A program made the position numbers and the translations under genes. From an uncultured beta proteobacterium (lineage in GTDB: Bacteria > Pseudomonadota > Gammaproteobacteria > Burkholderiales > Rhodocyclaceae), in assembly GCA_903908065.1 (NCBI GenBank), contig CAIVQO010000065.1, forward strand, positions 1 through 43,203: a stretch of DNA of 43,203 bases. Reading direction: 5' to 3'. Under the pieces are notes generated by a model, which was not told where the DNA came from, did no database searches, and worked only from the letters and a program-made list of their open reading frames with translations. Numbering within the stretch: position 1 is the first letter of the stretch; the number at the start of each line of letters is the position of its first letter. Of this stretch, positions 1 through 33,216 are shown piece after piece.

Positions 1-1507
1 AGAACACCAAGCCGCCCTTGGTCGTCATCACGCCACCCCACAGCGGAGCGTTGTTCTTGACTTCCCAGGCGATCTTGCCGGTGGCCGGGTCGATGGCGCG
101 CATGGCGCCGATGTAGTCGCCACCGATGTCCTTGGAATCCAGCGTCTTGATCGTGAAGCCGGCGCCGAGGTAGGCCGCACCCTTCTTGTAGGTGATCGGC
201 TCGTTCCAGATTTCCATGCCCCACTCGTTGGCCGGAACATAGAACATCCCGGTATCCGGGCTGTAGGCCATTGGCATCTGGTTCTTGCCGCCGAGGAAGG
301 ACGGCGCCGAGAACACCGAGTTGCCCTTCTTGCCGTCAGCGCTCTTGCTGGGGTCGCCCGGGCGATTGGCCGGATCGAACTTGGGACGCCCGTCGGCCTC
401 GAGACCGGTGGCCCAGGTGATTTTCTTGACGAAGGGGAAGCCCTTCTGGAACTTCCCGGTCTTGGCGTCGAGCACGTAGAAGAAGCCATTGCGGTCGGCC
501 TTGCCACCGAGGTGCTTGCCATCCTTGGACTTGAAGGTGACGAACTCGTTCACGCCGTCATAGTCCCAGCCGTCATTCGGCGTGCCCTGGAAGTGCCAGG
601 CGATCTGGCCAGTATCGACGTCGATGGCGACGGTGGAGCAGGAGTACAGGTTGTCGCCGGGCCTCAGGTGGCTGTTCCACGGTGCCGGGTTGCCGGTGCC
701 GAAGTAGGCCAGGTTAGTCTCGGGATCGTAGGTGCCGCCCAACCAGGTGGCGGCGCCGCCGGTCTTCCACAAGTCGCCCGGCCAGGTGGCGTTGGTCTTG
801 CCAGAAATCCCGTTGTCCTTGCCGTCCTTGGTACCCATGTGACCTTCGACGGTCGGACGCGACCAGACCAGCTTGCCGGTCTTGGCGTCGCGCGCATCGA
901 CGCGGCCGACGATGCCGAACTCGCCGCCGGAGACGCCGGTCAGGACCAGACCCTTGGCGATGATGGGGGCAGCGGTATAGGAAAAGCCGGCCGCGTAGTC
1001 GTCGATCTTTTCCTTCCAGACGACCTTGCCCGTATCCTGGTCGAGGGCGACGAGTTGCGCATCCAGGGTACCGAAGATCACCAGGTTGTCGTAGAGCGCG
1101 GCGCCACGGTTGATGACGTCGCAGCAGGGCATGATGCCATCAGGCAGGCGATGTTCGTACTTCCAGAGCTTTTTGCCGGTCTTGGCGTCCAGGGCAAAGA
1201 TGCGCGAGTAGGAGGCGGTAACGAACATCTTGCCGTTGTGCACCACGGGCTGGCTTTCCTGGCCGCGCTGCTTCTCGCCACCGAAGGAGAAGGACCAGAC
1301 CGGAACCAGGTTCTTGACGTTCTGGGCGTTGATCTTGGCCAGCGGGCTGTAGCGTTGCCCCTGGGTTCCCATACCCCAGGACACGACGTCGCCGGTGGTC
1401 TTGGCATCATTCACGATGTCCTTGTCGGTGACACGGGCAAGGGCCGGGGTGGCGGCCATCGCCAGTAGTGCGCCGGTAACCGCGACGGCAGTCAAGGCTC
1501 TTTTCAT
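1..1507 (-). CDS. PQQ-dependent alcohol dehydrogenase, lanthanide-type signature (3' end beyond window)
   Basis: Periplasmic quinoprotein that oxidises primary alcohols and passes electrons through PQQ to a cytochrome c. About 502 codons are visible; the family is about 580-620 residues, so the C-terminus lies outside and a C-terminal haem domain cannot be excluded. Residues 1-24 form a Sec signal peptide ending ATPALA. The adjacent cysteines typical of the family are C128-C129 ([10 protein letters not shown]), and repeated tryptophan-docking segments ([26 protein letters not shown]) mark the eight-bladed propeller. The catalytic Asp is D315 in [15 protein letters not shown]317, two residues on, is the extra Asp that in XoxF and PedH coordinates a lanthanide; calcium enzymes have Ala or Ser there (recalled family knowledge). 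The ATG at 1507 follows a GGAGAGA ribosome site. It is preceded by its own sigma-54-like promoter and follows the relay genes mbl1 and soxYZ-like. Substrate is not deducible. Confidence 0.93.
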
Positions 1508-17964: not shown

Positions 17965-18294
17965 CTAGCCTGCCCCCGCGCTCGCTGATTCGATGAATTC
18001 GTCGAGGATGGCCTGCAGCCGAAGGCGCAGGCCCCGAATCAGCTCTGGATCGACATCGATGCCCTGCAGATGGCCGCAAATGTCGTCCGCCGTCAGCATG
18101 AAGAAGTCCTCGGGCTGCAGCACGGCATCGCGAATCCACAAGCTGGGGTAGCCCTCGCCATGGGCATCGCGATTCTCGCTATGGACGATGGCATGCGACC
18201 AGCCGGTCGCGGCACAGATCGCATCGGCGTAGCGTGCATACAGCGTGCAACGCCCGCCGGGGGGCTGCTGGGAGATGACCTTTACCGGCGCCAT
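17965..18294 (-). CDS. Conserved-looking 109-residue cytoplasmic protein, unknown
   Basis: I do not recognise the family. The protein is soluble, has no signal or helix, and carries an aromatic segment GYPSLWIRDAVLQPEDFFML and a C-terminal Leu-rich helix (ELIRGLRLRLQAILDEFIES). There are three cysteines (GGRCTLY, AICAATG, DICGHL), none in a CxxC. Its ATG at 18294 overlaps the stop of the DsrE-like gene (ATGA), so the two are co-translated and downstream of the ArsR-rhodanese gene. A role in the same sulfur or redox response is inferred from position only. An in-frame upstream start would overlap the DsrE-like gene further and is not preferred. Confidence 0.75.
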   Translation of the reverse strand: MAPVKVISQQPPGGRCTLYARYADAICAATGWSHAIVHSENRDAHGEGYPSLWIRDAVLQPEDFFMLTADDICGHLQGIDVDPELIRGLRLRLQAILDEFIESASAGAG

Positions 18295-18641
18295 CAGAAC
18301 ACCAGTACCTTGTCGGCCCAGGTCGTCCATTCAGTGAGCTGGGCCAGGGTGCCGCGCGAAGCGCCCTCGGTCAGCTCGCCCTCCGCGATCCCGCGCGCGT
18401 CCATGCAGGTGCCGCAGACGGCTACACCGGCGCTACGTCGCGCCACCATGCCCAGCATGTCGGCAATGTTGTAGTAGCCCTGCGGCACCCTCTGCCCGCC
18501 CTTGGCGCAGGCGGCGGCATCGCCCATCAGGAACACGCGCACCTCCTCGGCCTTGGCCAACGAATTCGCCAGGCGCAGGGCGTTGTAACTGCGTTCCGTG
18601 CCGTAGGGCGGATCGTTGAGGATGAACAGATTCTTCGCCAT
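18294..18641 (-). CDS. DsrE/DsrF-like family protein
   Basis: A 115-residue protein of the DsrE/YchN fold, small oligomeric proteins involved in persulfide trafficking or of unknown role. The N-terminus MAKNLFILNDPPYGTERSYNALRLA is the typical strand plus nucleotide-like loop, followed by VRVFLMGDAAACAKGG. Cysteines that could carry sulfane sulfur are in AACAKGG and in VCGTCMDARG; the latter, on the loop where DsrE keeps its active Cys, is the better candidate. It sits 20 bases after the ArsR-rhodanese gene and overlaps the next gene, forming a three-gene operon. Confidence 0.86.
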   Translation of the reverse strand: MAKNLFILNDPPYGTERSYNALRLANSLAKAEEVRVFLMGDAAACAKGGQRVPQGYYNIADMLGMVARRSAGVAVCGTCMDARGIAEGELTEGASRGTLAQLTEWTTWADKVLVF

Positions 18642-18661
18642 GGTATTTCCCTTCTAGGAAA

Positions 18662-19321
18662 TTAGGCCTCGACCGGGAGCCCGGCCGCCTTCCATTCCGG
18701 AAAGCCGTCCTCCAGGCGCCGCGCCTTGTAGCCGTTCTCGCGCAGCAGCGCCACCGCATCCACCGACAGCAGGCAATACGGGCCGCGGCAATAGGCAATC
18801 ACCTCGCGCCCCTTGGGCAGTCGCCGCAGGTGGCTGGACAGCGTCTCCAGCGTGACGTTGATCGCCCCCGGCACGTGGCCGGCGGCATATTCCTCGGGCG
18901 GGCGCACGTCGAGCACAGTCACCAGGCCCTGCTTGGCGCGCTTGAGCAGTTCCTGCGCCGGAACGGGCTCGAGGTCGTCGCGCGCAGTGACGTAGGTGCG
19001 CACCAGCTGCGCCACTTCGGCCACGCGCGACTCGGCCACGGTCGCCAGCGCGCCCAGCAGGTCCACTACGTCCGGCCCGGCGACTTCGTAGAACACCCGC
19101 ACGCCTTCCTTGCGCGCCCTGACCAGGCCGGCCTGGCGCAGCTCCTGCAGGTGCTTGGAGGCGTTCGCCACCGACAGGCGCGTCATGGTCGCCAGCTCGT
19201 CGACGCTGCGCGGCCCCTGGCTGACGAATTCCAGCAGCTCCAGCCGGTTGGCATGGCCGATCGCCTTGGCGACGCGCGCCAGCTGCTCGTAGATGTCCTG
19301 CTTGAAGTTTCCGGTTGACAT
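18662..19321 (-). CDS. ArsR-family HTH regulator fused to rhodanese domain
   Basis: A 219-residue transcription factor with an N-terminal ArsR/SmtB winged helix (about 10-95: AIGHANRLELLEFVSQGPRSVDELATMT, NASKHLQEL, VRVFYEVAG) and a C-terminal rhodanese domain (about 125-215). The rhodanese active-site loop is CRGPYC with C178 as sulfur acceptor and C183 as a second thiol. No ArsR metal-site cysteines are seen in the recognition helix (SVANASKHL), so sulfane sulfur sensed through the rhodanese domain is a natural guess, as in persulfide-sensing ArsR proteins. It is divergent from the sterol-desaturase/TVP38/octahaem gene chain across an inverted-repeat operator 21 bases from its ATG, consistent with autoregulation and control of both sides. 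Confidence 0.9.
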   Translation of the reverse strand: MSTGNFKQDIYEQLARVAKAIGHANRLELLEFVSQGPRSVDELATMTRLSVANASKHLQELRQAGLVRARKEGVRVFYEVAGPDVVDLLGALATVAESRVAEVAQLVRTYVTARDDLEPVPAQELLKRAKQGLVTVLDVRPPEEYAAGHVPGAINVTLETLSSHLRRLPKGREVIAYCRGPYCLLSVDAVALLRENGYKARRLEDGFPEWKAAGLPVEA

Positions 19322-19341
19322 CCGCCATCCCGCTCCGTATT

Positions 19342-19377
19342 ATTCAACTAGTCGGTTGAATAGTTGATTGGTTGAAT
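19342..19377. promoter_or_regulatory. Repeat-rich operator of the ArsR-rhodanese divergon
   Basis: ATTCAAC (19342-19348) and GTTGAAT (19355-19361) form a perfect inverted repeat with a 6-base spacer. GGTTGAAT then recurs at 19370-19377, sixteen bases after its first copy at 19354-19361, with a further AGTTGATT between. The AT-rich block sits in an otherwise GC-rich gap of 104 bases between divergent genes and most likely binds the ArsR-rhodanese protein and overlaps both promoters. Confidence 0.65.
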
Positions 19378-19425
19378 TGTAGCCCGCCGCCCGAGCGGGC
19401 GCAAGCCCGGACAGGAGAGAAGCAT

Positions 19426-20271
19426 ATGACGTTCGACGAATTCGCGCTCGCCAACGAACCGGTGATCCGCCTCGTCGCCTTCGTCGGCGTGTTCGCCCTG
19501 ATGGCGGCCTGGGAAGTCGTGGCGCCGCGCCGCGCCCGGCTGCACACGCGCCTGGTGCGCTGGAGCGCCAACCTCGGCCTGGTCGCCTTCAACACCGTGC
19601 TGCTGCGCCTGCTGCTGCCAATGGCTGCCGTCGGATTCGCCTCGCTCGCCGCGCAGCGCGGCTGGGGCCTGCTCAACAACCTCGAGCTGCCGGCCTGGCT
19701 GGCGCTGGTGCTCGCGGTGGTGGCGATGGACTTTGCCATCTGGCTGCAGCACGTGATGGTGCATGCGGTGCCGGTGCTGTGGCGCCTGCACCAGGTGCAC
19801 CACGCCGACCCCGACTACGACCTCAGCACCGGTGCCCGCTTCCACCCGATCGAGATCGTCCTCTCGATGCTGATCAAGTTCGCCGTGATCGCCGTGTTGG
19901 GGGCCCCGGCAGCCGCCGTGCTGGTGTTCGAGGTGCTGCTCAACGCCACGGCGATGTTCAACCACGCCAACGTCAGGCTTCCCCCTGCACTGGACGGCGC
20001 CTTGCGCCAGCTGCTGGTGACGCCGGACATGCACCGCGTGCACCACTCCATCGACCATGCCGAGGCCAACAGCAACTTCGGCTTCAACCTCTCGATCTGG
20101 GATCGCCTGTTCGGTACCTACCGCGCCCAGGCCCGCCTGCCGCAGGAGCGCATGGAGATCGGGGTCGCCGGACTGATCGGCGACGCGCGATGCGTCAGCT
20201 TCACCGGCATGCTGGCCATCCCCTTCACCCATGACGGAGGCGACTACGCGATCGGCCATGAAGCACGCTAG
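19426..20271 (+). CDS. Sterol desaturase/fatty acid hydroxylase family membrane protein
   Basis: A 281-residue integral membrane di-iron hydroxylase-type protein. Histidine boxes are present: WLQHVMVH, LHQVHHAD and MHRVHHS, plus FNHANV, matching the eight-His cluster of the superfamily. Four or five hydrophobic helices precede and separate them. The substrate is unknown; bacterial members act on lipids or carotenoids, and a family subset travels with sulfide or persulfide detoxification genes. The ATG at 19426 follows AGGAGAGA at ideal spacing. It is the first gene of a chain whose members overlap end to end to 25715, starting 49 bases after the operator. Confidence 0.88.
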   Translation: MTFDEFALANEPVIRLVAFVGVFALMAAWEVVAPRRARLHTRLVRWSANLGLVAFNTVLLRLLLPMAAVGFASLAAQRGWGLLNNLELPAWLALVLAVVAMDFAIWLQHVMVHAVPVLWRLHQVHHADPDYDLSTGARFHPIEIVLSMLIKFAVIAVLGAPAAAVLVFEVLLNATAMFNHANVRLPPALDGALRQLLVTPDMHRVHHSIDHAEANSNFGFNLSIWDRLFGTYRAQARLPQERMEIGVAGLIGDARCVSFTGMLAIPFTHDGGDYAIGHEAR

Positions 20272-21247
20272 GCTGGCCTTCGCCGTCGTCCTTGTGGCCG
20301 GGCTGGCCCTGGCCTTCGCCAACCGCGGCGCCTTTTCCCAGGAGGCCCTGCAACAATGGCTGGCCGACGCCGGCGCCTGGGCGCCACTGGCCTTCGTCGC
20401 CATTTACGCGGCGGCGACGGTGCTGTTCCTGCCCGGCTCGGTGCTGACGCTCGCCGCCGGCGCGCTGTTCGGCATCGTCGGCGGCGCGCTGTATGCCCTT
20501 ATCGGCGCCACGCTGGGCGCGGTGCTGGCCTTCCTGATCGCACGCCACGTCGCCGGCGACTGGGTGGCGAAAAAGGCCGGCGGCTGGCTCAGGCAGCTGA
20601 TCGAGGGCGTCGAGGCCGAGGGCTGGCGCTTCGTCGCCTTCGTCCGCCTAGTGCCGCTGTTTCCGTTCAACGTCGTCAATTACGCCCTGGGCCTGACGCG
20701 CATTCCGCTCGGCGCCTATGCGCTGGCTTCCGCCGTGTGCATGCTGCCCGGCGCCTTCGCTTACGCCTGGCTCGGCCAGGCCGGTCGCGCGGCACTCGCC
20801 GGGGATGCCAACGCGGTGAAGAACGGCCTGCTGGCGCTGGCCGTCGCCGCCGTCCTGATGTTCCTGCCGCGCCTGATCCGCCAGTTCAAGGCCGGCCTGC
20901 TGATCACCCCGGAGATGGCCAAGGCCCTCTGCGACCAGGGCGAAACCCCGGTGATCGACGTGCGCGAGGCCAAGGACTTCGACGGCGAAACCGGCCACGT
21001 GCCGGGCGCCCTCAACATACCGCTGGGCGAACTGCCCGCCCGCGTCGCCGAACTCGAACGCTGGCGCGGCGAGGGCGTGGTGCTGATCTGCCGCACCCAG
21101 GTGCGTTCCGGCCAGGCCGCACGCCTGCTGGCGCGGCAAGGCTTCGCCAACCTGCGGGTTGTCAATGGCGGCATCCTGGCCTGGCGCGAGCGCGGCTTCC
21201 CAACCGCATGGAACACGGAGCCGGCCAGTGCCGACGCTCGCGCTTGA
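20258..21247 (+). CDS. TVP38/TMEM64 membrane protein fused to a rhodanese domain
   Basis: A 329-residue fusion. The N-terminal two thirds is a TVP38/DedA-like (SNARE-associated) membrane domain with the family segments FLPGSVLTLAAGALFG, GATLGAVLAFLIAR and FVRLVPLFPFNVVNYALGLT. The C-terminal rhodanese domain (about 220-320) has GHVPGALNIPLGELP and an active-site Cys C278 in ICRTQVRSGQAA. The fusion could move or sense sulfane sulfur at the membrane; no reaction is established. The ATG at 20258 overlaps the previous gene by 14 bases; an in-frame ATG at 20231 adds nine residues and cannot be excluded, since neither has a clear ribosome site. The end overlaps the next gene by 20 bases. Confidence 0.87.
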   Translation: MKHARLAFAVVLVAGLALAFANRGAFSQEALQQWLADAGAWAPLAFVAIYAAATVLFLPGSVLTLAAGALFGIVGGALYALIGATLGAVLAFLIARHVAGDWVAKKAGGWLRQLIEGVEAEGWRFVAFVRLVPLFPFNVVNYALGLTRIPLGAYALASAVCMLPGAFAYAWLGQAGRAALAGDANAVKNGLLALAVAAVLMFLPRLIRQFKAGLLITPEMAKALCDQGETPVIDVREAKDFDGETGHVPGALNIPLGELPARVAELERWRGEGVVLICRTQVRSGQAARLLARQGFANLRVVNGGILAWRERGFPTAWNTEPASADARA

Positions 21248-23600
21248 GCCGGCGCGTTCCTTCCCGCGCGCGCCGCACGCGGTGGCGGCAGGCGAGCAGG
21301 ACAGCCTGCCTTCGCGCTACGGCGGGTGGGTGCACCTGCTGGCCCTGGCCGGCTTCACGCTGGCCTTCGTCGGCTGGCTCAACGAGACCTGGCTGTTTCT
21401 CTTCGACAGCCCGATCTGGCTCAACCGCTATACCGAGTACGCCATCATCCTGGCCTTCGGCACCTGGCGCATCGCCAGCGAAAAGAACGCCTACACGCGT
21501 CGCCGGCTGGTGATCCTGGTCGGGGTCGTCACGGCCCTGTGGTGGCTGGTGCCTTGGCTGTATCCCCTGGTCGAGCCCCATGTCGGCTACCTCTGGTCGC
21601 AGCCGGTGTTTCCTTCGCTGCACACGCCGGGCACGCTGACCTTCTTCCTGGTACTGGGCCTGGTGTTCTTCTTCGGCCGCCGCGTCATCTGCGGCTTCGG
21701 CTGCCCCTGCGTCGGCATCCGCGAAACCGTCGGCTTCCCCTTCCGGGCGCGAACCCCGCGCGGCGAACTGGCCTGGAAGCTGCGCCACCTGAAGTGGCTG
21801 TTCTTCGCCTACTACGTCGGCATCATGGTGGCGACCCAGTTCCCGCCCAACAGCTGGACCCTGTCATTGGTCGGCGGCTTCTACGGCCTGGTGGCGGCGA
21901 CCTACTTCGGCACCTTCTTCCTCGCCCCGGTGGTCGGCAACCGGGCGTACTGCCGCTTCCTCTGCCCCTTCGGCGCCACCTTCGGTCTGATCAACCACGC
22001 CGGCTGCTACGACCTGAAGATGGACGCGAAGCGCTGCATCGACTGTGGCCGCTGCGAGCAGGCCTGCGACATGGGCATCCCGGTGTGGAAGCAGGGCAAG
22101 GAGCATGGCCGCGTCACCGGACTCGAGGACTGCATGGGCTGCGCGCGCTGCGTGGTGTCCTGTCCCACGGACGCGCTGGAGATCCGCGACGTGCGCAACC
22201 TGCTGCGCCCGGCGCTGCGCCAGGATGCGACTCACCTGCTGCGGCGCGTCGCCGCGCCGGAGCTGCCGCGCATTGACGCCTGCGCCGAGCGCCTGTCCTT
22301 GCCCGAGATCCAGGTCCAGGCCGCGCGCTGCCTCGACTGTGGCGAACCCACCTGCCGCGCCGCCTGCCCGCTCAACAACCGCATTCCCGAGTGGCTGATG
22401 GCCGCCGCCAAAGGCCGCATCGAAGAGGCCGCCAGCCTGATGGCCAGCACCTCGCCGATGCCCGAACTCTGCGGCGCGCTCTGCCCGCAGGACCGCCTGT
22501 GCGAAGGTGCCTGCGCCCGCGTCCGCCTTGGCGACGCCGCCGTGGCGATCGGCGCCATCGAGCATGCGGTGACCGAGGAGGCCCTGGCGCGCGGCTGGCG
22601 CCCGCCGCTGACGCCGAAGACGCGCCTCGACAAGACCGCCGCAGTGATCGGCGCCGGCCCGGCCGGGTTGGCATTCGCCGAGGCGATGAACCGTGCCGGC
22701 TGGCAGGTTACGGTATATGACCGCGAAGCATCGGTGGGCGGCATGTTGCACAACGGCCTGCCGCCCTTCCGCTTCGACAAGCGCATCCTCGAGCGCCGCC
22801 GCATCCTGCTGCAACAGGCGGGGGTCAATTTCGAACTCGGCGCCGAGATCGACGAATCCGGTTTCCTGCGCCTGCGCGATCAACACGATGCCGTCTTCCT
22901 CGGCATCGGCGCGCGCCAGCCGCGCGAGATCGGCCTGCATGGCCGCGACCTCCATGGCGTCGACGATGCGCTGTCCTTCCTCGCCCGCGTCAATCGTGGC
23001 GAGGCCGGCGCTGCCGGAGGCAGCCTGGCCGGCAAGCGTGTGCTGGTGCTGGGAGGCGGCGACACCGCCATGGATTGTGCCCGCGCCGCCCTGCGCGAAG
23101 GCGCCACCACCGTCGCCGTCGCCTACCGTGGCACGGCAGAAAAGCTGCGCGCCAATCCCCACGAGCGGCAAGCGGCAATCGATGAAGGCGTCGAGTTCCT
23201 CTTCGGGCACGCGCCCGTCGCCGTCGAAGGAGAGGCCGCGGCACGCGCGGTGAGCTTCAAAGTCGGCGCCGGCGATGCGGCGACCCTGCAGACCCTCCCC
23301 TGCGATGCCGTGATCCTCGCCTTCGGCCAACAGCCGGCGGCGCCGCGCTGGCTCGATGCAGCCGGGGTCCGCACCGAATACGGCGCGATCCGCGTCGATG
23401 CCCACGGCCGCACATCCCATCCGCGCGTCTATGCCGGCGGCGACGCCGCCCACGGGCCGGACCTGATCGTCACCGCGGTCGCCGCGGGGCGCCGCGCCGC
23501 GCGCTGCGTGCTGGCGCAGGAACGCCTGGCCGGCTGGAAGACCTGGCAGGCCTGGCGTGCCGCGCCGCCGCCTCTGATGACACCGGGGCTGGCGACATGA
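21228..23600 (+). CDS. Fusion of NapH-like membrane ferredoxin and GltD-like FAD/NAD(P)H oxidoreductase
   Basis: A 790-residue two-part protein. Residues about 30-320 are a NapH/CcoG-like membrane ferredoxin: four helices, CGFGCPC (155-161), CRFLCP (242-247) and two 4Fe-4S motifs CIDCGRCEQAC (270-280) and CMGCARCVVSCP. Residues about 350-780 are a glutamate-synthase small-subunit-like module: Fe-S segment with CLDCGEPTCRAACP and CGALCPQDRLCEGAC, FAD site GAGPAG (475-480), NAD(P) site GGGDTAMD (609-616) and a closing YAGGDAA. Known parts suggest electrons from NAD(P)H through FAD and Fe-S centres to the membrane, then to the periplasmic cytochromes encoded next. The start is the GTG at 21228, with GGAGCC upstream; a longer in-frame version would run far into the rhodanese gene. 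The stop overlaps the next ATG. Confidence 0.9.
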   Translation: MPTLALEPARSFPRAPHAVAAGEQDSLPSRYGGWVHLLALAGFTLAFVGWLNETWLFLFDSPIWLNRYTEYAIILAFGTWRIASEKNAYTRRRLVILVGVVTALWWLVPWLYPLVEPHVGYLWSQPVFPSLHTPGTLTFFLVLGLVFFFGRRVICGFGCPCVGIRETVGFPFRARTPRGELAWKLRHLKWLFFAYYVGIMVATQFPPNSWTLSLVGGFYGLVAATYFGTFFLAPVVGNRAYCRFLCPFGATFGLINHAGCYDLKMDAKRCIDCGRCEQACDMGIPVWKQGKEHGRVTGLEDCMGCARCVVSCPTDALEIRDVRNLLRPALRQDATHLLRRVAAPELPRIDACAERLSLPEIQVQAARCLDCGEPTCRAACPLNNRIPEWLMAAAKGRIEEAASLMASTSPMPELCGALCPQDRLCEGACARVRLGDAAVAIGAIEHAVTEEALARGWRPPLTPKTRLDKTAAVIGAGPAGLAFAEAMNRAGWQVTVYDREASVGGMLHNGLPPFRFDKRILERRRILLQQAGVNFELGAEIDESGFLRLRDQHDAVFLGIGARQPREIGLHGRDLHGVDDALSFLARVNRGEAGAAGGSLAGKRVLVLGGGDTAMDCARAALREGATTVAVAYRGTAEKLRANPHERQAAIDEGVEFLFGHAPVAVEGEAAARAVSFKVGAGDAATLQTLPCDAVILAFGQQPAAPRWLDAAGVRTEYGAIRVDAHGRTSHPRVYAGGDAAHGPDLIVTAVAAGRRAARCVLAQERLAGWKTWQAWRAAPPPLMTPGLAT

Positions 23601-23785
23601 AACACATCACGATCGCCTTGCTCGCCGTCGCCTCGGCGCCGACTTTCGCCCACGTGCATAACGTCGGCATGGACATCATCTGCACCACGACCGACGCGCC
23701 CCCGGGGCTGACGCTCCTGCCGCTCCTGCTGCTGGTGGGCATTGGCATCGTGCGAGCGGTACTGAAGCAGCGCAAGGATCCCTGA
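23597..23785 (+). CDS. 62-residue membrane peptide of the octahaem cytochrome cluster
   Basis: I do not recognise this gene, but overlap at both ends (ATGA with the fusion gene, and its last base shared with the octahaem start) makes it a real member of the operon. It has an export signal of about 18 residues (MKHITIALLAVASAPTFA), a short periplasmic stretch HVHNVGMDIICTTTDAPPG with two His and one Cys, then one helix (LTLLPLLLLVGIGIVRAVL) and a basic tail KQRKDP. The shape suits an anchor or assembly subunit linking the membrane ferredoxin to the cytochromes. That function is inference. Confidence 0.72.
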   Translation: MKHITIALLAVASAPTFAHVHNVGMDIICTTTDAPPGLTLLPLLLLVGIGIVRAVLKQRKDP

Positions 23786-25122
23786 TGCGACCGCGCTGGC
23801 TGCTGGCGCCGGTGCTGCTGGCCCTGGCCGGCATCGCGATCGGCATGGTCTGGGTGGACTGGAGCAAGGGCGGCGAAGGCAGCGGCCTTTACTCGCGTGA
23901 ATGGAAACCTGATCCCGTCCAGGGATACTGGGACCCGGAGCGCTTCTATCGGCCCGTGCAAAGCGTGGAAGGCAAGTTTCCGGCCGCCGAGTGCATCGCC
24001 TGCCACCAGGCGCTGACCCCGGGTATCGTCGCCGATTGGCGCGAAAGCCGCCACAGCAAACCTGCAGCGAGCGCACCGGTGACCTGCCCCGACTGCCACG
24101 GCGACGACCATCGCGCCTTGCGCATGCCCACGCCCAAGGTCTGCGCCAATTGCCACGGCGCACAGCACGACGCGATGCAGGCCGAGAAGCGCTACGGCTT
24201 CCCCAGCCATGCACTGGCCATGGAGCGCGCCGTCGACAGCAAGCATTTCGCCGACAAGCCGAAAGCCGAGACCACCGCCTGCGTGCAATGCCACTCGGTG
24301 GCCACCAAGTGCGATTCTTGCCACACGCGCCACCGCTTCGACGCCGCCGAGGCGCGCCGCGCCGAGTCCTGCACCACCTGCCATTCCGGGCCGCCACATC
24401 CCGACGACGAGGCCTTCTATGCCTCGGCCCACGGCAGGAAATACCTCGCCGAGGCCGCCACCATCGACTGGACCAAGCCCCTGGTCAAGGGCAACTACGC
24501 GGTGCCGACCTGCGCCTACTGCCACATGCGCAACGGCCAGCACATCGTGGCGGACAAGTCGATCTGGGGCTTCGGCCTGCGCCAGGTGAACCCGCAGACG
24601 GCGGAGAACAAGATCAAGCGCGAGCGCTGGCTCGAGGTCTGCCGCGACTGCCACGACGAGGAGATGGCGCGCGAGGCGCTGGTCGGGCTCGACCGCGAAC
24701 GCGAACGCGCCTGGCAGGGACTCAATCGTACCGAACGCCTGCTGCGCGGCTTGCGCAGCGAGAAGGCTTTCTACCCGGCAGCCGGCGAACGCCCGTCCTA
24801 TCCGACCGACTGGATGGAGCCCTGGTGGCCCAAGGAACGCATCGGTTTCTTCGAGGGCCAGGCCTCGGGCTTCTACAACGTTTCGCCGATCGAGCGCGAC
24901 TATTTCGAGATGTGGTACTACGCCAACCTTGGCGCCTACAAGGCCGCCGGCCACGGCGCGCCAAAGCTGGCCGAGGAAGGCCACGAAAAACTGCAGCGCG
25001 CCGAGGCGGCAATCGGGACGCAGGCGGCCGAGCTGCGCGCCCGCGCCGGCAACGCACGCCCCGACCCGCGCCCGTTGTGGCTCGACGGCGAATACACGGC
25101 CTACAACCGGGATCACAACTGA
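23785..25122 (+). CDS. Octahaem cytochrome c, hydroxylamine oxidoreductase-like family
   Basis: A 445-residue periplasmic cytochrome, N-terminal helix 5-25 as signal or anchor, with eight CxxCH haem sites at C70, C101, C120, C166, C176, C196, C243 and C286. The order and the block KCDSCHTRHRFDAAEARRAESCTTCHSG match Nitrosomonas HAO as recalled (KCDNCHTRHEFSAAESRK). The catalytic Asp-His pair of HAO, which follows the sixth CxxCH, is P204-H205 here, and the Tyr that cross-links to the active-site haem has no counterpart in GHGAPKLAEEGHEK. This points to a reductive enzyme, perhaps on nitrite, hydroxylamine or nitric oxide, rather than an oxidase. It is shorter than HAO (about 546). No CX15CH motif of sulfite reductase MccA is present. 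Neighbours supply NAD(P)H-derived electrons. Confidence 0.88.
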   Translation: MRPRWLLAPVLLALAGIAIGMVWVDWSKGGEGSGLYSREWKPDPVQGYWDPERFYRPVQSVEGKFPAAECIACHQALTPGIVADWRESRHSKPAASAPVTCPDCHGDDHRALRMPTPKVCANCHGAQHDAMQAEKRYGFPSHALAMERAVDSKHFADKPKAETTACVQCHSVATKCDSCHTRHRFDAAEARRAESCTTCHSGPPHPDDEAFYASAHGRKYLAEAATIDWTKPLVKGNYAVPTCAYCHMRNGQHIVADKSIWGFGLRQVNPQTAENKIKRERWLEVCRDCHDEEMAREALVGLDRERERAWQGLNRTERLLRGLRSEKAFYPAAGERPSYPTDWMEPWWPKERIGFFEGQASGFYNVSPIERDYFEMWYYANLGAYKAAGHGAPKLAEEGHEKLQRAEAAIGTQAAELRARAGNARPDPRPLWLDGEYTAYNRDHN

Positions 25123-25715
25123 TGCGCGCGCTCGTGCTCTGCATGATCTGGCTCGCGGCACTGCCGACGCAGGCAAAAACCTGCGTCGAATGCCATGGCG
25201 ACAGCGCGAAAAAGAGCTGGGCGCTGTCCAAGCACGGCGTCATCGCCACGCTGGAAGCCGGACGCGAGCGTCGCCGCGCCCCCGATTGCGCCGGCTGCCA
25301 TCTTGCCGAGGCGGCGGCCCCGACGCCGCCGCACTACGGCAGCAAAGCGACCCGCGAGCAGGCCCGGGCGAGCGCCTGGGACAGCTGCCGCAGCTGCCAT
25401 TCGCCGCGCTACACGACGGAGCAGAACGCCGCCGCGCAGCGCGGGCTGGACATCGCCCTGATGAAGCGGCGCGAGGCCGCCGCCCTGCTGGAGGTGGCTC
25501 GCAAGGAATCCGGCGGCCCCGAAATTGCACGCATCGAGGCCCTCTACGCCGCACTGGAGGGCAATTTGCGCGACCTGCGACTGGGGCTGGCCCACCAGTC
25601 GCCCGACTACCAGTGGTGGCTGGGCCAGGCCGCCCTCGACGGCAGCCTGCTGCGGATCAAGGGCGCGCTAGGCGAGGCGCGGCGCACGCGCGCCATCGCG
25701 GCGGCAGGGAAGTGA
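25122..25715 (+). CDS. Trihaem cytochrome c
   Basis: A 197-residue exported cytochrome, signal peptide about 1-18 (WLAALPTQAK), with three CxxCH sites: CVECH near residue 21, CAGCH near 57 and CRSCH near 92. The second half (about 100-197) is haem-free and helical, rich in Ala, Arg and Glu (ALMKRREAAALLEVARKES), with HQSPDYQWWLGQAALDG. I do not know a named family. It starts on the last base of the octahaem gene and ends the chain, so it is likely the electron donor to, or a subunit of, the octahaem protein. A short hairpin follows the stop. Confidence 0.85.
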   Translation: MRALVLCMIWLAALPTQAKTCVECHGDSAKKSWALSKHGVIATLEAGRERRRAPDCAGCHLAEAAAPTPPHYGSKATREQARASAWDSCRSCHSPRYTTEQNAAAQRGLDIALMKRREAAALLEVARKESGGPEIARIEALYAALEGNLRDLRLGLAHQSPDYQWWLGQAALDGSLLRIKGALGEARRTRAIAAAGK

Positions 25716-26416: not shown

Positions 26417-26589
26417 GGGGTTTGCTCCGCCTCGGGGGAAAATCCGCTTCAATGCCACTATAACGGCTGCCGGCAGGGGTTCTCAAGCACACTACAGTCG
26501 CCCGGCGCAGTCGGGAAGTTTTTTCGCCACAGAAATGTAAGCTTGCGCCCGCCCAAGCGACCAAGCCTGAGTTGCCCACGGAGAACACC

Positions 26590-27585
26590 ATGCACGCCAC
26601 CCTGCCCCTGCTGACCGAAACCGATTTTCCCGCCCTGCGCCGGCGCGGCGTCGAAACCCTGCAACTCAACCTGGGCTATCGCTGCAACCAGAGCTGCCAG
26701 CATTGCCACGTCAATGCCGGCCCCAAGCGCACCGAGGAAATGAGCGCCGAGACTGTTGCTGCCGTGCTTGATTTCGTCGCCGCCAGTCCTTCCGTGACCT
26801 GCCTGGACCTGACGGGCGGGGCCCCGGAACTGAACCCCCATTTCCGCTCCCTGGTGCTTGCGGCGCGGGCACGCGGCCTGCGAGTGATCGACCGCTGCAA
26901 CCTCACCATCCTCGAAGAGCCCGGCCAGGAAGACCTCGCCGAGTTCCTCGCCGCGCACCGGGTCGAAATCGTCGCCTCGCTGCCATGCTACCTGGAAGAA
27001 AACGTCGACCGCCAACGCGGAAGCGGTGTCTTTGCCGCCAGCCTGCGCGCACTGCAGCGCCTGAATCGGCTGGGCTATGGCCAGCCGCATTCCGGTCTGC
27101 CGCTGAACCTGGTCTATAACCCGCAGGGACCCAGCCTGCCACCACCGCAAGCGCAGCTGGAAATCGACTACAAACGCCATCTCGGCGAAAATTACGGCAT
27201 CGTCTTCAGCCAGTTATTCAGCCTCGCCAACATGCCGATCCAGCGCTTCGGCAGCATGCTGATTTCCAAGGGGCAGTTCAACGCCTACCTGCAGACGCTG
27301 CGGAGCGCCCACCAGGCCGGCAACCTCGATGGCGTGATGTGCCGCAGCCTGCTCAGCGTGGACTGGCAAGGATGGCTCTACGACTGCGATTTCAACCAGC
27401 AGCTTGGCCTCGCCATCGCCGATGGCAATCGCCGCCAGCACATCAGCGAGGCGACGGCGGCAACCCTGGAGCAGCGCCCGATCCTGGTCGCCGAACATTG
27501 CTACGGCTGTACCGCGGGTCAGGGTTCGAGTTGCGGCGGCGCGCTGGGGGCAGAGACCGCCGCCGCGCCCAGCTGCGGCACCTGA
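26590..27585 (+). CDS. arsS: Radical SAM protein, ArsS-like (arsenosugar biosynthesis family)
   Basis: A 331-residue radical SAM enzyme. The SAM-cluster motif is CNQSCQHC (Cx3Cx2C) near residue 34, followed by DLTGGAPELNPHF and DRCNLTILEEPG. The C-terminal third carries NLVYNPQG, SLANMPIQRFG, CRSLLSVDWQGWLYDCDFN and a Cys cluster HCYGCTAGQGSSCGG, the layout of the DUF3641/ArsS family that adds an adenosyl group to dimethylarsinous acid in arsenosugar synthesis. No arsM or other arsenic gene is adjacent, so the assignment rests on family resemblance. The ATG at 26590 follows GGAGA. Confidence 0.83.
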   Translation: MHATLPLLTETDFPALRRRGVETLQLNLGYRCNQSCQHCHVNAGPKRTEEMSAETVAAVLDFVAASPSVTCLDLTGGAPELNPHFRSLVLAARARGLRVIDRCNLTILEEPGQEDLAEFLAAHRVEIVASLPCYLEENVDRQRGSGVFAASLRALQRLNRLGYGQPHSGLPLNLVYNPQGPSLPPPQAQLEIDYKRHLGENYGIVFSQLFSLANMPIQRFGSMLISKGQFNAYLQTLRSAHQAGNLDGVMCRSLLSVDWQGWLYDCDFNQQLGLAIADGNRRQHISEATAATLEQRPILVAEHCYGCTAGQGSSCGGALGAETAAAPSCGT

Positions 27586-31321: not shown

Positions 31322-31424
31322 CATGGGAAATTCAAATCGGCTGGCGTAAGGAACGGCCGCCGGGCGCGACTAAATGCGGAGTGCCGTCGCTATCGGCACC
31401 GCCAACCCTGAACAGGAGAAGCAC

Positions 31425-31925
31425 ATGAATCGACGCAGCTGGCTGTATTCGATCACCGGACTGCTTGCCACACCGCTGCTGACAGGCAGCGCAACAGCCG
31501 CCAACGGCAAATTCGTCGTCAGCAAGAGCCGCGAAGAATGGAAAAAGCTGCTTTCGGCCGAGGCCTACCAGGTCTTGTTCGAGGACGGCACGGAGCGCGC
31601 CGGCACCAGCCCGCTGAATCAAGAGAAGCGGCCCGGCACTTACCTCTGCGCGGCCTGCAACCTGCCGCTGTTCGATGCCGCACACAAGTACGAAAGCGGC
31701 ACCGGCTGGCCGAGCTTCTGGCAAGGCCTGCCCGCCGCACTGGGGACCTCGACCGACTTCAAGCTGATCTATCCGCGCACCGAATACCACTGCGCGCGCT
31801 GTGGCGGCCATCAGGGCCATGTCTTCAACGACGGCCCGCAACCCACCGGAAAGCGTTACTGCAACAACGGCGTCGCCCTGCGTTTCATCGCCCGCGGCGA
31901 AAGCCTGCCGGCGCTGCGCACATGA
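31425..31925 (+). CDS. msrB: Exported methionine-R-sulfoxide reductase
   Basis: A 166-residue MsrB that repairs methionine R-sulfoxide in proteins, here exported. The N-terminus MNRRSWLYSITGLLATPLL carries twin arginines and a hydrophobic stretch ending SATAA, so Tat export is likely. The zinc site is two CxxC pairs, YLCAACNLP and HCARCGGHQGHVF, and the catalytic Cys lies in RYCNNGVALRF; SGTGWPSFW is the substrate signature. The ATG at 31425 follows AGGAGAAGC. Its stop overlaps the msrA start (ATGA), so both reductases are made together, probably in response to the divergent ECF sigma. Confidence 0.94.
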   Translation: MNRRSWLYSITGLLATPLLTGSATAANGKFVVSKSREEWKKLLSAEAYQVLFEDGTERAGTSPLNQEKRPGTYLCAACNLPLFDAAHKYESGTGWPSFWQGLPAALGTSTDFKLIYPRTEYHCARCGGHQGHVFNDGPQPTGKRYCNNGVALRFIARGESLPALRT

Positions 31926-32530
31926 GGCGCTGGCTGGCGAAGGCGTTTCTGGCGGCCAGCGCCCTGCTTGGTGGCGCTGCCGGCGCGGAGCCGATTCCGG
32001 TCCCTCCCGGCATGGCCACCGCCATCTTTGCCGGGGGCTGTTTCTGGTGCGTGGAGCAGGATTTCGAAAAACTGCCCGGCGTGATCGAAGCCGAATCGGG
32101 CTACATCGGCGGCAGTACCCCGTTCCCCACCTATGAGCAGGTGGCCTATGGTGGGACCGGCCATACCGAAGCGGTGCGCGTCATCTACGACCCGCGCAAG
32201 GTCGCCTACACCCAATTGCTCGATCATTTCTGGCGCCACATCGATCCCACGGTGAAAGATCGCCAGTTCTGCGACAAGGGAAACCAGTACCGCAGCGGCA
32301 TCTACTACCAGAACGACGCAGAGCGCAAACTCGCCGAAGCCAGCCGCGACGAACTGCTGAAAAGCGGGCGTTTCCCCAGGATCGAAACCGAGATCGCGCC
32401 GGCATGGCGATTCTGGCCGGCCGAGGGCTACCACCAGGACTACTACAAGAAGAATCCGATCCGCTACAGCTTTTATCGCTACGCCTGCGGACGCGATGCG
32501 CGGGTGGAGTTCCTCTGGTCGAATCGATGA
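31922..32530 (+). CDS. msrA: Exported methionine-S-sulfoxide reductase
   Basis: A 202-residue MsrA, partner of MsrB. Signal peptide about 1-22 (FLAASALLGGAAGAE). Catalytic motif GGCFWCVEQDF is intact, followed by SGYIGG, YGGTGHTEAV, HFWRHIDPT and QYRSGIYY. An expected C-terminal resolving Cys may be C in RYACGRDAR. Overlaps msrB at its start and the glycosyltransferase at its end (ATGA both), so the three form one transcript. Confidence 0.94.
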   Translation: MRRWLAKAFLAASALLGGAAGAEPIPVPPGMATAIFAGGCFWCVEQDFEKLPGVIEAESGYIGGSTPFPTYEQVAYGGTGHTEAVRVIYDPRKVAYTQLLDHFWRHIDPTVKDRQFCDKGNQYRSGIYYQNDAERKLAEASRDELLKSGRFPRIETEIAPAWRFWPAEGYHQDYYKKNPIRYSFYRYACGRDARVEFLWSNR

Positions 32531-33216
32531 CCCGTTTATCGATCATCCTGCCGGTACTCGATGAAGCATCCGCCATTGGCGCCCGCCTTGGCGCACTGCA
32601 AGCCCTGCGCGCGCATGGCGCGGAGCTGGTGGTGGTCGATGGCGGCAGCCAGGACGGCACCCTCGCCTGCTGTGCCGGGCTGGCCGACCAGGTCCGGGTC
32701 GCGGCTCGCGGGCGCGCCCGGCAGATGAACGCGGGCGCCGCCGCCAGCAGCGGCGACGTCCTGCTCTTCCTCCACGCCGATACGGAACTGCCGCCCCAGG
32801 CTTTCGAATCCATCATCGCTGCCATCGATGACGGAGCCCAATGGGGACGCTTCGATGTGCGGATCGACGGCGCGCATCCGATGTTGCGGGTTATCGAGCG
32901 GATGATGAACTGGCGCTCCCGGCTTACCGGCATTGCCACCGGCGATCAGGCGATTTTCCTGCGCCGCGACGTATTCGAGCGCATCGGTGGCTACGAAGAC
33001 ATTTCCCTGATGGAAGACATCCGCCTGAGTGCCCGCCTGAAGCGCGAATCAGCCCCTGCTTGCCTGGCAGCTTCGGTAACGACGTCGGCGCGACGCTGGG
33101 AGAAACACGGAATCTGGCGCACCATGCTGCTGATGTGGCGCTTGCGCGCGGCCCATTTTTTCGGCGCCAACCCGGAAAACCTGGCCCGCCAGTATGGTTA
33201 CCGCGGCGATTCCTGA
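32527..33216 (+). CDS. TIGR04283-type family 2 glycosyltransferase
   Basis: A 229-residue GT-A glycosyltransferase. It begins MTRLSIILPVLDEASAI, has VVDGGSQDGT for nucleotide-sugar binding, GRARQMNAGAAASSGDVLLFLHADTELP (DxD-type HAD) and GDQAIFLRRDVFERIGGY with MEDIRLSARL. These match the TIGR04283 subgroup, often found beside TIGR04282 proteins; none is here. The substrate is unknown. The ATG at 32527 overlaps the msrA stop, so it belongs to the oxidative-repair transcript, which is unusual company. Confidence 0.88.
   Translation: MTRLSIILPVLDEASAIGARLGALQALRAHGAELVVVDGGSQDGTLACCAGLADQVRVAARGRARQMNAGAAASSGDVLLFLHADTELPPQAFESIIAAIDDGAQWGRFDVRIDGAHPMLRVIERMMNWRSRLTGIATGDQAIFLRRDVFERIGGYEDISLMEDIRLSARLKRESAPACLAASVTTSARRWEKHGIWRTMLLMWRLRAAHFFGANPENLARQYGYRGDS

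Follow-up and report, generated by a model that had tools for sequence, protein, structure and literature searches.

An octahaem cytochrome of the HAO family and a NapH-GltD fusion in a conserved gene set of sulfur oxidisers

HAO-type oxidation in the known octahaem enzymes depends on a tyrosine cross-link (Tyr467 in N. europaea numbering), and an Asp267-His268 pair beside the haem has a role in catalytic HAO and hydrazine dehydrogenase. In HAO trimers, the loop that bears Tyr467 reaches the neighbouring subunit. The Kuenenia pair kustc0457/kustc0458 (Protein Data Bank, PDB, entry 6h5l) has the HAO fold and eight haems, lacks the cross-link tyrosine and includes a small multihaem cytochrome partner; we know of no NapH-GltD protein or rhodanese regulator encoded beside kustc0458, although no search was aimed at this. 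An octahaem HAO-like protein is also described from sulfur bacteria, the orange octaheme BOGUAY_0691 of Beggiatoaceae. Here we analyse a locus on a 43,203-nucleotide stretch of DNA from an uncultured beta proteobacterium of the Rhodocyclaceae (assembly GCA_903908065.1, contig CAIVQO010000065.1, positions 1 to 43,203; hereafter the window), in which a NapH-GltD fusion, an HAO-family octahaem cytochrome and a smaller multihaem cytochrome are encoded within six overlapping genes that diverge from a rhodanese-domain regulator.

We find that this is a well-conserved gene set of sulfur oxidisers, previously undescribed as far as the titles and opening lines of abstracts tell. We propose, with a probability of roughly four in ten, that it encodes an inducible reductase of periplasmic oxidised or zero-valent sulfur species, fed by NAD(P)H via NapH and controlled by a rhodanese-domain sensor.

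The octahaem protein and its partner cytochrome

We scanned a collection of 84,980 species with an alignment of 13 proteins; 245 of 271 pattern matches were confirmed as octahaem relatives. Locus counts refer to the best 80 of these 245, which together with the window give 81 octahaem sequences. The window protein belongs to the HAO family (PF13447, 116.2 bits against 21.9), and all 81 sequences have eight CXXCH motifs. A profile search of PDB chains returned eight sequences at E values up to 0.001, all HAO-type or 4qo5, and did not place the protein among OTR, ONR/NrfA or MccA. By profile, the nearest solved relatives were Kuenenia HAO 4n4j (273 bits), 6t5e, 6h5l, 6hif (248 bits) and N. europaea HAO (1fgj, 179 bits). 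The score against the NCBIfam model for hydrazine dehydrogenase, 197.6, is far below its cut-off of 900. The top Foldseek match of a structure model, used for fold recognition only, was 6h5l.

With N. europaea residue numbers counted on the 1fgj alignment, no tyrosine stands in the Tyr467 column of any of the 81 sequences, and the Asp267 column holds proline in every one (Pro204 in the window protein). His268 (His205 in the window protein) and the CXXCH motif of haem 4 are invariant. The aspartate is kept in nine of ten other HAO-family sequences; the exception (L038) is a divergent sequence with six CXXCH motifs that is interrupted by a stop and is no clean representative of the family. In a tree of 42 sequences (34 octahaem) without the very long entries L037 and L038, the octahaem group lies on one side of a branch with 100/94 support; in a fuller tree that includes them (91 sequences, 81 octahaem), the group has 68/55. 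Because of this branch support, the missing Tyr467 and the uniform proline, we conclude from the sequences that the octahaem protein represents a branch of its own within the HAO family, without the cross-link and with an altered active-site neighbour. It also differs from HAO and hydrazine dehydrogenase in its membrane anchor and its operon. The missing cross-link and the small cytochrome partner are features that it shares with reductive HAO-like proteins of the kustc0458 type, although the 6h5l chain keeps the active-site aspartate and a WWW loop of its own. BOGUAY_0691, compared by description, differs in being a soluble protein of 511 residues with napAB and NADH dehydrogenase subunit genes upstream, according to excerpts of PMC6449678.

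An earlier note on this DNA had called the partner a trihaem cytochrome. This is true of the window protein, which has three CXXCH motifs, but elsewhere the protein is usually pentahaem (five motifs in 56 of 73 partner sequences, four in 3 and three in 14) and it is HAO-derived: the partner model (pLDDT 84.6) matches HAO structures with TM scores of 0.65-0.70 on its own length and a best E value of 5e-4. All 73 partners carry an SPDxQWW loop or a close variant (71 in strict form), and such a loop was found in none of the 81 octahaem sequences. Aligned by eye, the partner loop falls on the Tyr467 loop of HAO (NPGGWTY) and on WWWGQ of 6h5l. Since the partner keeps a loop that the octahaem protein has lost, and since the HAO loop reaches a neighbouring subunit, we suggest that the two proteins may form a hetero-complex in which the loop is given in trans. 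If true, a split HAO with a paralogue-supplied loop would be a new way of building a multihaem active site.

Two other groups of HAO-family genes appeared in our search. Beta-proteobacterial loci L068, L069 and L070 (from G391 and G075) have HAO-type genes that keep the cross-link tyrosine column, and in L069 and L070 these are followed by what look by eye like small cytochrome genes, reminiscent of nitrifier clusters. L071-L074 form a further octahaem HAO-like branch of about 400-420 residues as extracted; they keep the aspartate and have NPDYA(L/T)WYGW where the tyrosine loop stands.

Conservation and hosts of the gene set

In the window, all named genes were confirmed at their coordinates and reading frames (Table 1). 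Each of the six plus-strand genes overlaps the next, end to end, and ArsR-rhodanese, DsrE and a small PPGGRC protein are encoded divergently on the minus strand; the arrangement put forward in the earlier note is thus borne out by coordinates, frames and Pfam domains. The DsrE-like protein scores below the cut-off of NCBIfam TusD (27.3 against 89.25), and the PPGGRC protein had no Pfam match at E values up to 0.01.

The same note had proposed a conserved and unnamed system, and both parts held. The note would have taken separate occurrence of these genes elsewhere as a refutation; NapH, the octahaem protein and its partner are in fact kept together across loci. Counting only loci of sufficient extent (5.5 kb or more upstream for the hydroxylase and VTT-rhodanese, 7 kb or more for ArsR-rhodanese), NapH lies upstream of the octahaem gene in 62/66 loci (56/60 outside the source genus), the GltD half is present in 61/72 (54/65) and the multihaem partner follows in 71/73 (63/65). 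The hydroxylase accompanies the set in 40/51 loci (35/46 outside the genus) and VTT-rhodanese in 37/51 (32/46). ArsR-rhodanese is present in any orientation in 42/45 (37/40), divergently in 39/45, and DsrE in 22/45 (17/40). The literature that we found deals with related octahaem proteins; judged by titles and the start of abstracts, none of it describes this operon. No relative of the NapH-GltD protein was found on viral contigs. A protein of about 200 residues occurs near the operon in six loci (L101:12442-13038, L085, L090, L117, L130 and L146), downstream in most; the L101 copy, which was scanned, has no Pfam or NCBIfam match.

One member did not hold. The 62-residue peptide, which the earlier note had expected to be conserved with the fusion and the cytochromes, was matched in only 8 of 76 loci (those with at least 400 bp upstream), and we rejected it as a conserved family. 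The slot between the NapH-GltD and octahaem genes is instead filled by a small exported protein that has a membrane helix at its C terminus and comes in three types: the 62-residue peptide in the source genus, a peptide of about 70 residues with an AHHT..H motif (18 loci) and a di-haem protein (36 loci). The ends of the 62-residue peptide resemble, by eye, those of the di-haem protein, and it may therefore be a reduced form of it.

Close to the source, 13 of 61 genomes (the source and 60 relatives) had some match, and 10 had a full-length homologue of the octahaem protein at 76 percent identity or more, all in the source genus, where carriers make up 10 of 31 genomes. Six of the nine other source-genus loci contain the whole set in order; the remaining three are cut by contig ends. 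The 399 genomes of the order yielded three further carriers, at 57-59 percent identity. Carriers are mostly sulfur oxidisers, and the order of the set is also kept in distant proteobacteria, a recurrence that goes beyond chance. By record titles they include Sulfuritalea, Thiobacillus, Thiodiazotropha, Thiogranum, Sulfuricaulis, Lamprocystis, Chromatiales, Magnetococcales, tubeworm and lucinid-clam symbionts and many other Gammaproteobacteria.

The hosts commonly carry dsrA. In a draw from the class, 369 genomes taken as the same set in the octahaem and dsrA searches, dsrA (E up to 1e-40) was found in 13/14 octahaem carriers and 105/355 others (Fisher p 2.3e-6, uncorrected for kinship). Outside the source genus, where dsrA and ArsS were counted in the genomes of 45 of the 80 loci, 39/45 carriers have dsrA (38 over the cut-off); this set partly overlaps the class draw. 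Two dsrA-type matches were seen in 22 of these 45, mostly on different contigs (one is a fragment).

Table 1. Features of the gene set and linked genes in the window
Feature	Position	Strand	Basis
Small conserved protein, about 105 residues, PPGGRCTLYxRYA motif	17965..18294	-	sequence; no Pfam family
DsrE-like protein, 115 residues	18294..18641	-	PF02635, 79.9 bits
ArsR-rhodanese regulator, 219 residues	18662..19321	-	Pfam Rhodanese and HTH_5
Predicted operator palindrome ATTCAA-N8-TTGAAT	19342..19361	.	putative function
Extra palindrome half-site	19372-19377	.	sequence
Fatty-acid/sterol-type hydroxylase, membrane	19426..20271	+	PF04116 (FA_hydroxylase), 105 bits
VTT (TVP38/DedA-like) membrane domain with C-terminal rhodanese	20231..21247	+	PF09335, 86.7 bits; PF00581, 65.3 bits
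NapH-GltD fusion	21228..23600	+	Fer4 clusters, Fer4_20, Pyr_redox_2; GTG start at 21228 assumed
Exported peptide, 62 residues, C-terminal membrane helix	23597..23785	+	no Pfam family
HAO-family octahaem cytochrome, N-terminal membrane anchor	23785..25122	+	8 CXXCH; Multi-haem_cyto, 116 bits
Trihaem partner cytochrome, HAO-derived	25122..25715	+	3 CXXCH; conserved QSPDYQWW loop
ArsS radical SAM protein, linked to the operon but outside it	26575..27585	+	TIGR04167, 456.7 bits (cut-off 300)
TIGR04283 glycosyltransferase, downstream of the operon	32527-33216	+	280.2 bits (cut-off 182)

Before the TIGR04283 gene lie two genes that by eye resemble the methionine sulfoxide reductases MsrB and MsrA (31374-32530, plus strand), and similar genes are present in L031, L032 and L033. 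Near the start of the window (2-1507, minus strand) is a gene resembling, by eye, a PQQ-type alcohol dehydrogenase.

Electron donor, regulator and palindrome

A crude scan of the window NapH-GltD protein gave three or more hydrophobic peaks, and the sequence contains CX3CP motifs, two ferredoxin-type 4Fe-4S motifs and the Fer4_20, FAD and NAD(P) domains. Of 62 NapH sequences, 61 have two or more CX3CP motifs and 61 have two ferredoxin-type motifs; one sequence (L093) is broken. These motifs are shared with the NapH/NapGH quinol dehydrogenases, from which the protein differs in that its NapH half is below the curated cut-offs (TIGR02163, 58.4 against 213; PRK09477, 56.2 against 234) and that a GltD-type flavoprotein is fused to it, as in 50 of the 62 sequences (those longer than 600 residues). 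The flavoprotein half has the domains of DsrL/GltD-type NAD(P)H oxidoreductases, and its hosts are likewise dsr-bearing sulfur oxidisers, but here it is joined to a NapH membrane part and remains under the gltD_gamma_fam cut-off (396 bits against 483). It may be DsrL-like.

The regulator has only two cysteines, Cys178 and Cys183, in the rhodanese loop CRGPYC, and scores 39.3 bits against a BigR cut-off of 155. According to excerpts of PMC10451225 and PMC12423496, the known sulfane-sulfur repressors of the ArsR type have a conserved pair of cysteines within the ArsR domain. Because its ArsR part has no cysteine, the regulator is not an SqrR/BigR protein, and it may be a different sensor that answers a similar signal. 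It shares the ArsR fold with the SqrR/BigR/SoxR/sHdrR repressors, and TauE and rhodanese genes lie nearby or under its palindrome; it differs in the missing cysteines, the fused rhodanese and the operator spacing. The earlier note had suggested persulfide sensing or handling; sulfane sensing would rest on the rhodanese domain with Cys178 and Cys183 and on the neighbouring genes.

The region beside the regulator that had been singled out as its binding site (19342-19377) contains a conserved palindrome and a further half-site, and we predict that the palindrome is an operator. The exact form ATTCAA-N8-TTGAAT is present beside the ArsR-rhodanese gene in 32/50 loci, where shuffling of mononucleotides gives an expectation of 0.001 (0.03 with spacings of 4-12), with the reservation that the loci are not independent. 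The SqrR-type operator motif is ATTC-N8-GAAT; it was found in 0/50.

We then considered sites genome-wide. Two exact sites and a third, mismatched one were found in the source genome (3.84 Mb); neither C12, the second of the exact sites, nor the mismatched site lies beside a marker gene. We counted 43 sites, in 33 of 48 further carrier genomes, against 7 for a backward control; of the 80 loci, 14 had genomes that lay outside this search. An earlier count of 18/18 genomes with the palindrome was rejected as evidence, because all 18 had been chosen from loci already showing it. Of 51 site regions examined (G498:C84 was left out, and one region belongs to the mismatched site), 27 contain an ArsR-rhodanese gene. 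Among these are L183, in which a second copy of the regulator is present and the site heads a hydroxylase and DsrE, and the tubeworm symbiont L197, in which a palindrome copy lies directly upstream of NapH-GltD. Elsewhere, the site heads a hydroxylase, VTT-rhodanese, a MerA-like flavoprotein and ArsS (L177) or lies directly upstream of a TauE gene (L179, L182, L192, L208, L213 and L218). PPGGRC relatives are encoded beside DsrE or TauE genes near the palindrome in L182, L197, L208 and L213.

Direction, substrate and rival explanations

A reductive direction is probable, given a donor of the NAD(P)H type, the presence of NapH and the lack of a cross-link. For the substrate, the earlier note had named nitrite, hydroxylamine, NO or a sulfur oxyanion. 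The loss of the active-site aspartate makes nitrite and hydroxylamine less likely. Sulfur is favoured because of the hosts, the two rhodaneses, DsrE, TauE, a desulfurase-like gene and the aspartate loss, although we put it at somewhat under an even chance.

The proposed sequence of events would be as follows. ArsR-rhodanese would release the palindrome once sulfane sulfur reacts with the cysteines of its rhodanese domain. Electrons from NAD(P)H would enter at the GltD domain and cross the membrane by way of the iron-sulfur clusters of the NapH domain. They would then be relayed by the small exported protein and by the partner, with its three or five haems, to the membrane-anchored octahaem protein, which with the partner would form a hetero-complex derived from an HAO homotrimer ancestor, the partner loop reaching the catalytic haem of its neighbour. 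This complex would reduce periplasmic polysulfide, polythionate, thiosulfate, sulfite or sulfur, and the resulting sulfur would be handled by the rhodaneses, DsrE, TauE and the cysteine-desulfurase-like protein.

Several observations weigh against this proposal. The GltD half is absent in 11 of 62 NapH sequences (9 Magnetococcales and 2 Alphaproteobacteria, with NapH of 372-393 residues); NAD(P)H is therefore likely the donor in most carriers, not in all, and the NAD(P)H-fed path of the earlier note keeps its reductive look and its prevalent fusion and loses its universal donor. The octahaem structure model has low confidence (pLDDT 66.5), so that the case for the hetero-complex comes from sequence comparison rather than from an interface model. 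In the regulator, the cysteine pair of the known sulfane-sulfur ArsR sensors is missing. The palindrome is absent in 18/50 loci, 16 of the 51 site regions have at most a weak marker-gene match beside the site and could be accidental, and of the six TauE sites only three have a PPGGRC gene and two a cysteine-desulfurase-like gene. A dependence on dsr within the source genus was looked for and not found: dsrA exceeds the cut-off in 5/10 carriers and 16/21 non-carriers, counts that include some incomplete genomes. Linkage to ArsS, ArsM, TIGR04282 and TIGR04283 could point to arsenic or selenium.

This linkage is the basis of one rival, in which the enzyme is a reductase or helper for arsenic, selenium or a similar metalloid within a wider ArsM/ArsS-type pathway. 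ArsS, TIGR04282 or TIGR04283 lies near the operon in 14/80 loci (9/72 outside the source genus; ArsS is linked in 5/8 source-genus loci), and the count rises to 21/80 (16/72) when full-length ArsM-like genes at 40 percent identity or more are added. In L066 and L067 (Hydrogenophilales, Thiobacillus), only a short gap separates the partner gene from an ArsM-like gene that lies downstream of it and is read in the same direction. Outside the genus, ArsS occurs in 37/45 carriers (35 over the cut-off) against 10/30 relatives without the octahaem gene, and within it ArsS over the cut-off occurs in 10/10 carriers against 14/21 others (p 0.044). The palindrome stands on one ArsS operon (L177), and one TauE operon (L182) has MerT and HMA genes. 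Those 14 of 21 source-genus genomes nevertheless have ArsS without the octahaem gene, and 59/80 loci have no such neighbour within their flanks, which are often short. The terms 'arsenosugar' and 'ArsM' denote families, and both of the ArsM-like proteins that were scanned fell below their NCBIfam cut-offs. In the window, ArsS over its cut-off lies beside the operon and not inside it, which marks a putative arsenosugar-type cluster. On balance, we regard a metalloid as a possible but unlikely substrate.

A detoxifying reductase for nitrite, NO or hydroxylamine, as proposed for other cross-link-free octahaem proteins of the family, is favoured by the fold and haem count only; the pairing with a small cytochrome is reminiscent of kustc0457/kustc0458. 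With acceptors of such high potential it would be wasteful to draw on NAD(P)H, the operator sites head sulfur-handling genes, and the aspartate found in nine of ten other HAO-family sequences is proline throughout. Measurements on relatives are divided. Excerpts of PMC11897245 cite Ferousi et al. for nitrite reduction by purified kustc0458, but also report no discernible nitrite reduction in kustc0458 fractions and call its role unclear. For the orange octaheme of Beggiatoaceae, excerpts of PMC6449678 describe nitrite reduction, which was weak in the expressed protein, and we also count in favour of this rival a fall of kustc0458 transcripts in NO-fed cells (excerpts of PMC6423088). We consider nitrogen oxides an unlikely substrate.

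Two further explanations are very improbable. An octahaem protein that oxidises a periplasmic compound while the fusion returns electrons to NAD(P)+ would suit hosts that are oxidisers and GltD-type domains that, as in DsrL, can run towards NAD+, but the tyrosine cross-link that known enzymes need is missing throughout, and HAO substrate potentials are too high for NAD+ reduction. Cytochromes that merely serve as an electron hub for the membrane hydroxylase or another neighbour, without octahaem catalysis, would explain why the hydroxylase gene accompanies the set, but the octahaem protein stays in 11/51 loci where no hydroxylase was found, and its haem 4 and His205 are invariant.

Returning to a sulfur reductase, we also considered a narrower form that seems quite unlikely as a whole: an NADH-driven, periplasm-facing split HAO that reduces zero-valent sulfur in the periplasm and so provides Dsr-type sulfur oxidisers with a step hitherto missing from their pathway. 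Stored sulfur or polysulfide would be converted to mobile sulfide or persulfide by a catalytic subunit that has lost its cross-subunit loop, with a haem-reduced paralogue donating the loop in trans.

The gene set spans free-living sulfur oxidisers, tubeworm and lucinid-clam symbionts and the magnetotactic Magnetococcales. If the substrate is arsenic or selenium, the 'arsenosugar' gene families would be tied to a respiratory-type enzyme. This operon is a concrete candidate for the step by which sulfur stored in the periplasm is activated for the Dsr route.

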